Positions 49,364 through 54,091 of a DNA stretch of 64,000 nucleotides are shown here, piece after piece; within the stretch, counting starts at the first letter, position 1; every line of letters begins with the position of its first letter. The DNA is from an archaeon. GTDB lineage: Archaea; Thermoproteota; Nitrososphaeria; Nitrososphaerales; Gagatemarchaeaceae. A program made the translations under genes and the position numbers. The notes beneath the pieces were generated by a model. It did no database searches and was not told the DNA's origin. It was given only the letters and a program-made list of their open reading frames with translations. The DNA lies in the NCBI GenBank assembly GCA_021819105.1, contig JAKASK010000003.1, positions 1 through 64,000 of the forward strand. Reading direction: 5' to 3'.

Positions 49364-50638
49364 TTGCCCGCTCCAAAGGAGCTCTCCGTCTTCGGCGAGG
49401 ACTACGGTACTTCGGAGCTGAAGTTCGGCCCGGCGACCCTGGGCAACGTCCCGGACGTAATCGAGAACCGGGGCTACTTCCCCGACACCAGGTCGTCGAT
49501 GGTGAGGATGACAGGCGGGGCGGACAAGAAGCTGCTGGTGGTCGGCCCCGACGTGTCCAACTTCGTCGAGGCGAAGCGCGACATAGCCGAGAGGATGGTC
49601 TATCCGATGCGGAGCGGGGTCATCGACAGGGACGACGACAGGTCCTGGTCGGTGGTGAAGGAGCTGACGAGGTACGCCCTCCTCAGGCACGTGCCTGAGA
49701 ACCCTGAGTTCGACGGCGTGAAGGCAGTGGCAGCGCTTTCGGCCGCCGCCCCGAGGTACATGTACGACAGGCTCTTCGAAATCCACAGGGAGATCAACCA
49801 GGAGGAGGGGAGGAAGCTGGTCAAGGCGTTGTCCATCATCCCTCAGCCCTTCGCCGTCGCCATATCGCAGAAGGTCCTCGCCTGCACTGTGCTCGAGGCA
49901 GGCCATGGCAACGCGCAGATCGCACCCGTGAGCAGCGGCATGATCTTCAACGCGCTCATCACCCTGAACCGCGGCGGGGGGGACTGCGACCTCGTCGCCG
50001 CCGAGATACTGCGCGACGCCGGCTACGGGGACCTGGCTCGTGAGCCGAAGTTGGTCAAGCTGTTCAAGGAGTCGCTGGGGCTCGTCCCGAAGAGCCTGAA
50101 GCAGGTGATGGCGGACAAGAACAACCCGAAGTATGGGGCGGTGTTCAGGGTCCCCAACACCCGGATATCCATCGACCTGGACAAGAGCAGCTGGCAGCGG
50201 TTCCTGATAGGGGAGTACTTCTTCGACCCGTCCAACGAATACTACTCGTCCTACTACAGGCGCGGGTTCCCCAAGCCGGCCGACTCCTACTCGGAGGGGA
50301 AGGTGGTCGCAGGGACCACCGACCTGGCCGAAGTGATCATCCAGTCGGTCCAGAAGTGCAGCTTCGAGATCCAGCCGGCGCTCTACAGGTCGATTTTCCT
50401 GTCGGGGGGCGGCTTCTCCTGGAAGGTCCCCCAGGGGATGGAGAGCTACGCCGTCGACTCTTCTACGAAGCTGAAGGCGATGCTGGAGGAGAAGGGGATC
50501 CAGGGGGCGAACGTCACCCTCACCAAGCACCCGGTCTACAACGTCTGGCAAGGGTGCGTCGCCTACGGGCTCTACATCCCGGACGACTTCACCTGGGACT
50601 GGGACGAGCGAGAAGGCTGGCAGTACCTCGACCGGTAG
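49364..50638 (+). CDS. Actin-like ATPase (crenactin-related)
   Basis: The protein has 424 residues with the three actin-fold nucleotide motifs: phosphate 1 GEDYGTSELKFGP (11-23), phosphate 2 LEAGHGNAQIAP (177-188, with Glu where actins have Asp) and the adenosine loop IFLSGGGFSWKVP (344-356). This combination is found in actin/crenactin/MreB-family filaments, not in sugar kinases or Hsp70. It would form dynamic or scaffold filaments in the cytoplasm. TTG leaderless start. The next gene, 7 nt away, encodes a membrane protein with a coiled-coil tail and is the likely partner. No arcadin genes are recognisable nearby, and a ParM- or segregation-like role cannot be excluded. Confidence 0.85.
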   Translation: MPAPKELSVFGEDYGTSELKFGPATLGNVPDVIENRGYFPDTRSSMVRMTGGADKKLLVVGPDVSNFVEAKRDIAERMVYPMRSGVIDRDDDRSWSVVKELTRYALLRHVPENPEFDGVKAVAALSAAAPRYMYDRLFEIHREINQEEGRKLVKALSIIPQPFAVAISQKVLACTVLEAGHGNAQIAPVSSGMIFNALITLNRGGGDCDLVAAEILRDAGYGDLAREPKLVKLFKESLGLVPKSLKQVMADKNNPKYGAVFRVPNTRISIDLDKSSWQRFLIGEYFFDPSNEYYSSYYRRGFPKPADSYSEGKVVAGTTDLAEVIIQSVQKCSFEIQPALYRSIFLSGGGFSWKVPQGMESYAVDSSTKLKAMLEEKGIQGANVTLTKHPVYNVWQGCVAYGLYIPDDFTWDWDEREGWQYLDR

Positions 50639-52687: not shown

Positions 52688-52996
52688 ATGGTCAGTTTCC
52701 TCCTGCCTGACCTCTCTACCACGTTCCTGGTGGCGGCCATCGTCCCCCTCATCATCGGCTTCATAGTCGGGATCATAGTGAGGAGCGCCCTGAAGATCGG
52801 GATCGCGCTGGCGGTCTTGGTCATACTCCTCATCGCCGTGGGCATCATCTCCCCCAACCAGGTACTGACGCCGCTGCTTTCGTTCGTGAAGTCAGGCAGC
52901 AGCCTCACCACCTACGCCCAGAGGGTCGCAGGGTATCTCCCCTACTCGTCCCTCACCTTCCTGATAGGGCTCGCGATAGGCCTGCTCAAGGGCTGA
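52688..52996 (+). CDS. Small hydrophobic membrane protein
   Basis: The protein has 102 residues and three hydrophobic segments (TTFLVAAIVPLIIGFIVGIIV; IGIALAVLVILLIAVGII; SSLTFLIGLAIGLLKG) with a mid-loop GSSLTTYAQRVAGYL. It resembles FUN14-like or other archaeal small membrane proteins only in general layout. Leaderless ATG start. It has no obvious operon partner. Confidence 0.6.
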   Translation: MVSFLLPDLSTTFLVAAIVPLIIGFIVGIIVRSALKIGIALAVLVILLIAVGIISPNQVLTPLLSFVKSGSSLTTYAQRVAGYLPYSSLTFLIGLAIGLLKG

Positions 52997-53070
52997 AGCC
53001 AGAGACCTGACCCGTAGTCGGTCTGTCCCTGGAGGCGGGGGAGCCCGCATCCGGATGCCTGCGCGGCTCT

Positions 53071-53091
53071 TATATATTGCGACCATATTGC
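53071..53091 (+). promoter_or_regulatory. TATA-like box with tandem ATATTGC repeats, RHH/protease promoter
   Basis: TATATA at 53071-53076 is placed 26 nt before ATG 53098. Two copies of ATATTGC follow at 53074-53080 and 53085-53091, 11 bp apart (one helical turn). Tandem sites one turn apart are the usual RHH operator layout, so the adjacent RHH protein probably autoregulates here. Confidence 0.55.
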
Positions 53092-53097
53092 CATTAT

Positions 53098-53418
53098 ATG
53101 TTGGTGAACGTCACCTTCTCCCTCCCCGAAGACACCGTCCGGCGGCTCAGGAAGGCAGCGCAGGCCCAGGGTAAAGGACGCAAGGGCGCCATTTCCGAGA
53201 TGGTCGGGGCGGCCATAGAAGAGCACCTGGCGATGGTCGAGGCCAGGGTCACCGGGGAGCAGTTCCGTGCTGTGAAAGACGGCAGGGAACTGGCGAGGGC
53301 GCCGTCGCTCAGGAAGCTCGCTGCCGAGCTGAGGGCACTGGGGGTCGACCCGCGGGATGTCATCGTCCTCGGCACCACCCCGCTGGAGCCTGTAGTCAGG
53401 ACAGGGCTCAGGGGATAA
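53098..53418 (+). CDS. RHH-type protein, candidate antitoxin-like regulator
   Basis: The protein has 106 residues. The N-terminal VNVTFSLPEDTVRRLRKAAQAQGKG and AISEMVGAAIEEHLAMVEA form a ribbon-helix-helix DNA-binding domain. The C-terminal half (FRAVKDGRELARAPSLRKLAAELRALGVDPRDVIVLG) is unusual and could bind a partner. ATG 53098 matches the TATA box exactly. A retropepsin-like gene starts 5 nt downstream, so the pair is co-transcribed, a layout like a toxin-antitoxin module. Confidence 0.7.
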   Translation: MLVNVTFSLPEDTVRRLRKAAQAQGKGRKGAISEMVGAAIEEHLAMVEARVTGEQFRAVKDGRELARAPSLRKLAAELRALGVDPRDVIVLGTTPLEPVVRTGLRG

Positions 53419-53423
53419 TCTGC

Positions 53424-53816
53424 TTGAGCGGGCTCCTCGGGCTCGAGCCTGTGGTCCGGTTGAGGCTGGAGAACCACCTTCTCGGCAGGCGCTACCCGGC
53501 GGACGGCTTCGTCCAGGGTGTCATCGACACCGGATACCAGGGTTTCATCGCGGTCCCGGCCGAAGTCTTCGCTTCGCTCTCGTTGCACCTTCTCAAGAAG
53601 GCGAGCAGAGAACTGCGGCTCGCCGACGGCAGGGGCCTGAAGAGCGAGTCGGCCCTGGCGACGGCCCGCGTCGCGGGGCTCGAAGTGGAGGTGGACGGCC
53701 CCGTCGAGACGATACCCGGCCTCGCAGAAGTCCTCGTCGGGACCCGGTTCCTGTCCCGGTTCAGGCTCGAGCTCGACTACTGCCTTCAGAGAGCGTCATT
53801 GGCTGCCTGCGGGTAG
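53424..53816 (+). CDS. Clan AA (retropepsin-like) aspartic protease
   Basis: The protein has 130 residues. The catalytic triad region VIDTGYQGFIAVP has Asp35-Thr-Gly, followed by a hydrophobic LRLADGRGLKSESAL flap-like segment and the C-terminal VLVGTRFLSRFRLELDY, which corresponds to the retropepsin G-x-x-hydrophobic L-x-x-F/Y strand. It works as a dimer in known members. Substrates of archaeal examples are unknown. It starts with TTG, 5 nt after the RHH gene, and overlaps the convergent zinc-ribbon gene at its end by 31 bases. Confidence 0.8.
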   Translation: MSGLLGLEPVVRLRLENHLLGRRYPADGFVQGVIDTGYQGFIAVPAEVFASLSLHLLKKASRELRLADGRGLKSESALATARVAGLEVEVDGPVETIPGLAEVLVGTRFLSRFRLELDYCLQRASLAACG

Positions 53817-54091
53817 CTCCCCCCGGGGGACGCACGGTCAACCTTCGCCCCACGGATGTCGAAGGTCGACCACTCCTTGCAGAGCGGACACTGCAGGTAT
53901 CTGTCCTTGCCCAGCCTGAAGGCGCTGAACGACGCCCCTGGGACCCACTTGTAGTCGAAGGACCTGCCGCACTTCGGACAGGTGAGGGACGAGGTGTAGT
54001 GGTAGCGGGACCTGAGCGCCAGAGAGTAGACGACGAAGACGGAGCCGAGTATGAGGATGGGAAGGCCTACGAACAGGCCGAGGTTCACCAT
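53786..54091 (-). CDS. Membrane-anchored zinc-ribbon protein
   Basis: The protein has 101 residues with one N-terminal membrane helix (LFVGLPILILGSVFVVYSLAL) and a cytoplasmic or exported zinc ribbon with paired C-x2-C knuckles, TCPKCGRSFDYKW and QCPLCKEWSTFD. Its 3' end overlaps the protease gene by 31 bases. Known similar proteins are uncharacterised; a role in protein or RNA binding near the membrane is only a guess. Confidence 0.65.
   Translation of the reverse strand: MVNLGLFVGLPILILGSVFVVYSLALRSRYHYTSSLTCPKCGRSFDYKWVPGASFSAFRLGKDRYLQCPLCKEWSTFDIRGAKVDRASPGGSYPQAANDAL

Follow-up and report, generated by a model that had tools for sequence, protein, structure and literature searches.

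An archaeal gene predicted to encode a small ribbon-helix-helix (RHH) protein stands directly in front of a gene for a putative retropepsin-like aspartic protease, and the question that this locus raises is whether the two products work together and, if so, in what manner. The first-pass annotation of the window, by which is meant the whole stretch of 64,000 nucleotides that was analysed, had described an RHH protein with a distinct C-terminal half, followed by a DTG-type retropepsin of 130 residues, and had proposed that they form a toxin-antitoxin-like module. The parts themselves are as described: the upstream open reading frame has an N-terminal match to PF01402, and the downstream frame, separated from it by 5 nt, carries its motif in the context V-I-D-T-G-Y (Table 1). 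On comparative grounds both frames are real genes, because they are kept in 12 divergent homologous pairs, with identities of 27-49% for the partner and 34-50% for the protease, and because in each of the two genes third codon positions are the most divergent, as seen in the five pairs that were compared. In 8 of the 13 pairs the TTG start of the protease gene overlaps the TGA stop of the partner gene (TTGA); in the remaining five, the distance to the first residue of the matched protein is 5 nt (the window), 15, 28, 32 or 35 nt. A tRNA search of the window found none, and a sigma-70 and terminator scan of the window, of a kind ill-suited to archaea, returned nothing.

Table 1. Features of the gene pair and its upstream region, in positions of the window.
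Feature	Position	Strand	Basis
Conserved promoter/candidate operator block	53065-53097	+	TATA-like TTATATA at 53070-53076; ATATTGC at 53074-53080 and 53085-53091
Partner gene, predicted RHH protein, 106 aa	53098-53418	+	ATG start; ORF, with homologues beside the protease in 13/13 genomes
Predicted RHH DNA-binding domain, about aa 1-50	53098-53247	+	PF01402 at aa 5-32; RHH_6 in homologues
DUF5678-like domain, about aa 54-92	53257-53373	+	hhalign and AF2 secondary structure
C-terminal tail, PLEPVVRTGLRG region	53374-53415	+	G103 and R105 invariant in 13/13
Retropepsin-like aspartic protease, 130 aa	53424-53816	+	TTG start; TIGR03698 match
Predicted catalytic D35-T36-G37	53526-53534	+	D35 and G37 invariant in 13/13; T or S between
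Invariant C120 and C129	53781-53810	+	13/13 window-type proteases; nine residues apart, near the C-terminus

The window protease matches the TIGR03698 clan AA model with an E-value of 3e-15 and a score of 56.4 bits, slightly below the curated threshold of 57.35, which is exceeded by six of its window-type relatives. Since the model also matches all 13 homologous proteases, with E-values of up to 1 and 3e-21 at best, the predicted clan AA assignment holds in its family context. Each of the 13 is a single-domain protein with D-T/S-G, the DSG form occurring in genomes G097 and G091; loss of the catalytic aspartate in homologues, which the first-pass annotation had named as one finding that would speak against its proposal, was not seen. 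The DTG is present in the window translation, from which the HEXXH motif is absent. The two invariant cysteines near the C-terminus could possibly form a disulfide or a metal site at the protease dimer interface. A PDB sequence search with the protease profile gave human-type retroviral-like protease 1 as its best match (E 0.017), and an AF2 model of the protease, built from a two-row alignment of the window and locus L001, was discarded at a pLDDT of 34.

The first-pass annotation had suggested searching for the same pair in other archaeal genomes. At thresholds of E 0.001 for the protease and E 0.01 for the partner, a set of 101 genomes, comprising the window's own and 100 relatives, gives matches to the former in 18 genomes and to the latter in 13. 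These 13 are exactly the genomes with a protease match of E 1e-16 or lower, and every one of them (13 of 13) has the two genes side by side. The gene pair is therefore confirmed as real and co-inherited. The proteases of the five further genomes (best E 6e-6 to 1e-4) belong to other subfamilies. In four of these genomes (G008, G024, G029 and G060) the gene upstream of the protease is, by eye, RHH-like and DUF5678-like; in the fifth (G004) the protease lies so near the start of its contig that the upstream gene cannot be judged. Within the window's genus, the window-type pair occurs in 6 of 31 genomes. Distances among partners and among proteases correlate (r 0.83, reached in 0 of 5000 permutations), a result that common inheritance alone also gives.

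Independent occurrence of the two genes in relatives, the other counter-finding that had been named at the outset, was encountered to a small extent. Among 300 genomes of the phylum, 38 match the partner alignment, of which the window, G105, G205 and a frame-broken copy in G171 do so over nearly the full length; a protease lies behind the partner in G105 and G171. In G205, which is distant and related at the level of the phylum, the full-length partner is followed by no recognisable protease in three frames, and G076 holds two extra protease fragments without a partner match.

The N-terminal half of the partner is RHH-like. PF01402 (RHH_1) matches the window protein with an E-value of 8e-4 and 19.7 bits, just under the Pfam cut-off of 20.5, and RHH_6 matches 11 of the 13 homologous partners, with E-values of up to 10 and 1.4e-7 at best, so that the predicted RHH assignment holds in the context of the family. 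The best match of the partner profile in a PDB sequence search was the small RHH protein 2k6l (E 4e-4), over the RHH part only. A PDB fold search with the AF2 model of the partner found nothing at an E-value of 0.001 or below; this model, with a pLDDT of 63, was used solely for the secondary structure of the tail.

The C-terminal half provides the new part of the finding: judged by profile comparison, it is a divergent DUF5678 (PF18929) domain. When the 13 aligned partner tails were compared with 20 DUF5678 domains by hhalign, the match had a probability of 92.9%, an E-value of 3.7e-7 and a score of 35.1, while 100 column shuffles reached at most 12.25. The resemblance is nearly invisible to the plain PF18929 HMM, which matches 1 of the 13 partners (E 0.009) and gives no match to the window partner (P0001) at E up to 10. 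The AF2 model predicts strand-strand-helix-strand at aa 56-91, with mean pLDDT values of 71-82 in blocks over aa 51-90.

PF18929 itself has matches in 31 of the 101 genomes of the relatives' set and in 41 of the 300 phylum genomes. A census was taken of the 90 distinct DUF5678 genes above the Pfam cut-off (41 + 55 - 6 shared) in 60 archaeal genomes, in which near-identical copies were kept and two genes running off their contigs were scored as misses. A strict motif rule found a retropepsin behind 45 of the 90, against a background of 31 of 600 at random places in the protease-rich fetched loci. Because this rule missed obvious cases, a profile was adopted; trained partly on those 45 cases, it places a same-strand retropepsin ORF within 800 nt downstream of 63 of the 90 genes. 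Of these ORFs, 62 start within 200 nt, and the remaining one is 638 nt distant, with a second DUF5678 gene in between. The same profile found a retropepsin ORF in 0 of 300 random control segments of the window. An independent profile, made from the 13 window-type and 6 partnerless proteases, gave 24 of 90. Apart from the 2 genes that run off their contigs, 25 of the 90 have no protease-profile ORF downstream. DUF5678 is thus a frequent partner of archaeal retropepsins. In the common form of this association the DUF5678 partner has no recognised DNA-binding domain, which implies that the system is not built around the RHH domain.

Among DUF5678 genes with no protease behind them, those at loci L037, L040 and L150 encode products ending in LLTGQAGG or MMGMAGG, and at L150 the following gene is, by eye, ThiF/E1-like. 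The Gly-Gly end suggests a sulfur-carrier-like tail.

As the RHH protein has a DUF5678-like tail and DUF5678 is a frequent neighbour of retropepsins, this half of the partner is likely to be the protease-binding part, going beyond a merely possible substrate. Two further features concern its extreme C-terminus. The tail sequence LEPVVRTGLR resembles the N-terminal strand of the protease, LEPVVRLRLE. Since 10 of 300 shuffles match the resemblance seen over the 13 pairs, the mimicry is only suggestive, a lead. In addition, 42 of 82 distinct C-termini of DUF5678 partners end in two of I, L, V, F and M, where five control positions gave 3 to 12, which points to a possible interacting or degradation tail.

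Sibling modules place the pair in a wider setting. DUF5678 exceeds the Pfam cut-off in sibling partners from G305, G254 and G096, and the N-terminus of the G254 protein matches the window-type alignment. The G096 protein combines VAPB_antitox (32.5 bits; cut-off 27.9) with DUF5678 (40.5 bits; cut-off 23.2), and behind it lies a gag-asp protease (41.2 bits; cut-off 28.2). The DTGF protease behind the G305 partner had no Pfam match at E 0.01. At six loci of the phylum, moreover, an RHH domain matching the window-type alignment carries a different tail and is followed by a PIN-like protein; the three of these that were checked against Pfam are all PIN proteins. One kind of RHH domain is thus found in two settings: in the first it has a different tail and a VapC-like toxin follows, in the second its tail is DUF5678-like and the neighbour is a retropepsin. 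On contig C1 of G096 the VapB-DUF5678 and retropepsin pair is found twice (L050 at 238006 and L224 at 257069), 19 kb apart, the two copies having the same partner C-terminus and the same spacing.

The region upstream of the pair bears on its regulation. The TATA-like box lies 22-28 nt before the partner ATG, a position that makes one leaderless transcript likely. The first-pass annotation had placed both genes under one promoter with tandem operator-like repeats. The repeats do exist, 11 nt apart, but their score is reached by 14 of 100 shuffles, and as a significant operator on their own they were rejected. What stands is the conserved block: of the 33 nt leading up to the ATG, 26 agree with G020 and 21 with G023, compared with 13 and 16, respectively, of the adjoining 57 nt upstream. 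Perfect inverted repeats of 9-10 bp surround the TATA region in G097, G076 and G091 (equalled in 1, 0 and 1 of 100 shuffles), three cases that come from related loci; of the other 10 upstream regions, the window's among them, none has an inverted repeat that reaches the 1% level.

In the window the pair is flanked by a small membrane gene (52688-52996) and by a minus-strand gene (53786-54091), the reading frame of which overlaps the end of the protease gene. Both neighbours are found side by side, with no module between them, in G017 and G020. Neither module gene finds a match in G017; G020, like G023, carries the module in divergent orientation beside an actin-like gene. Such empty sites, together with a promoter block common to different contexts, indicate that the promoter and the two genes behave as one cassette. 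One viral scan with the protease alignment gave 10 pattern matches and no relative, and neither the protease nor a DUF5678 protein found a match in plasmids by tblastn.

The actin-like genes vary among these genomes. That of G023 (L214:8238-11105) contains an in-frame insertion of about 530 residues, after EAGAGN and ending in VHN before Thr, which was judged by eye to be intein-like; the window homologue (49364-50638) is without it. In G020 the gene (L207:2002-2600) breaks off after about 125 residues beside the module, and a homologue of the membrane gene follows.

Taken together, these observations favour, at somewhat less than even confidence, a self-contained and autoregulated cassette of protease and partner, built like a type II toxin-antitoxin pair, in which inhibition and autorepression would be the most probable roles of the partner. 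The arrangement that characterises type II systems, adjacent and co-inherited genes with the DNA-binding partner first, is found in 13 of 13 pairs. Also counted in favour are the DUF5678 tail, the 63 of 90 in the census, the VapB fusion, the PIN loci, the TTGA overlaps, the promoter block and the empty site; counted against are the window partner without a DUF5678 match, the 25 of 90 genes without a protease, the 24 of 90 given by the independent profile, the many DUF5678 partners with no recognised DNA-binding domain, the lone partner of G205, the inverted repeats in only 3 of 13 and the absence of matches on plasmids and of relatives in the one viral scan. The toxin-antitoxin-like module of the first-pass annotation thus survives in part: adjacency, the invariant aspartate, the patchy distribution, the empty site, the promoter block and the RHH and VapB siblings speak for it, and G205 and G076 against it.

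A mechanism of the following kind would be consistent with the autoregulated cassette. Dimers of the RHH domain may bind the candidate operator, which overlaps the TATA-like box, and so repress the gene pair. The DUF5678-like domain and the tail may bind the cognate protease and hold it inactive. Retropepsins with one DTG per chain act as homodimers, and as each chain here has a single DTG, the protease would have to homodimerise. RHH proteins are dimers too, so that the two DUF5678 tails of one partner dimer could each meet a protease chain. The weak TTG start, which in most relatives overlaps the partner stop, may keep the protease below the level of its partner, and loss of the partner would then free the protease to cut proteins of the cell or of an invader.

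A rather unlikely alternative is a switch resembling ImmA/ImmR, in which the aspartic protease, once activated, would cut the linker or tail of the RHH-DUF5678 protein and derepress the operon or other genes, with no toxin involved. Such a switch would suit an operon that pairs a DNA-binding partner with a protease, the hydrophobic C-terminal ends could serve as its cleavage or docking sites, and zinc proteases offer a precedent, described in PMC2701414. Most DUF5678 partners of retropepsins, however, have no recognised DNA-binding domain, and cleavage of a repressor therefore cannot be the general function.

A stronger version of the favoured, inhibitory cassette would make these pairs a class of toxin-antitoxin systems with a retropepsin toxin, DUF5678 being a dedicated inhibitor repeatedly fused to RHH types or to VapB, and the tail a pseudo-substrate or a copy of the N-terminal strand that blocks the homodimer. 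We regard this as unlikely.

Less probable than the ImmA/ImmR-like switch is a role of the DUF5678 protein as a subunit that activates the protease or brings it its substrates, in housekeeping or stress proteolysis, with the RHH domain merely providing autoregulation. According to PMC11957791, the few bacterial A2 peptidases that have been characterised involve further, activating protein factors, and DUF5678 without DNA binding, the common form, would fit such a role. The patchy distribution (13 of 101 genomes), the movement as a cassette and the antitoxin-type N-termini nevertheless fit a conditional or selfish module better. Finally, RHH genes are common in archaea, but that the two genes are unrelated neighbours is very improbable, and chance adjacency was rejected by the 13 of 13 adjacency and by the 63 of 90 against 0 of 300, the correlation of distances, which common inheritance would equally produce, lying on the same side.

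Comparison with known systems shows where the autoregulated cassette would stand. Like type II toxin-antitoxin pairs with RHH or VapB antitoxins (VapBC), it has a DNA-binding partner followed at a short gap or overlap by an effector, a related RHH domain precedes PIN proteins, and a VapB-DUF5678 fusion exists; there, however, the effector is an RNase or a kinase, whereas here the putative effector is an aspartic protease. By profile, the window-type proteases, 13 of 13, belong to the same family as the TIGR03698/COG5550 clan AA (DTGF) proteases, many DTGA- or DTGS-type relatives of which, among the loci listed, have no such partner. According to PMC2642776, knowledge of COG3577 and COG5550 is scant, and one is placed in A. 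fulgidus. In the COG2856 pairs (ImmA/ImmR, IrrE), whose zinc proteases PMC2701414 treats as toxin-antitoxin-like partners, a DNA-binding protein likewise accompanies a protease, but there a zinc protease is joined to an Xre HTH protein and here an aspartic protease to RHH-DUF5678; that paper does not use the word retropepsin (0 times), and it has a single word that begins with "aspart". RimB and Rlo, prokaryotic retropepsin-like proteases described in PMC11957791 and PMC12239564, also lie beside partner genes, these being RimK/RimA or RloB/RloC in place of RHH-DUF5678.

In five relatives (G011, G012, G015, G021 and G027; loci L105, L106, L109, L114 and L118), retropepsin-like ORFs with DTGADRTTVD directly follow a gene that is, by eye, a RimK-like ATP-grasp gene, an arrangement reminiscent of RimB-RimK. 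Window-type proteases are also related to PADLOC PEPT_D, an aspartyl protease of type III operons of Sulfolobales: with E up to 1, PEPT_D matches 9 and PDLC01052 12 of the 13 homologous proteases. In the open-licence literature, nothing was found that links a retropepsin or clan AA aspartic protease to an antitoxin, nor on ribbon-helix-helix and aspartyl protease toxin pairs, nor on an aspartyl protease in type III CRISPR of Sulfolobales, and DUF5678 was found named there in one paper, on an unrelated plant disease.

If the autoregulated cassette is the correct reading, DUF5678 would gain a role, and aspartic proteases would join the effectors of antitoxin-like operons. The cassette would show how single-domain retropepsins may be controlled in archaea, and it would be a source of naturally occurring proteins that inhibit or activate retropepsins, the family to which HIV protease belongs.
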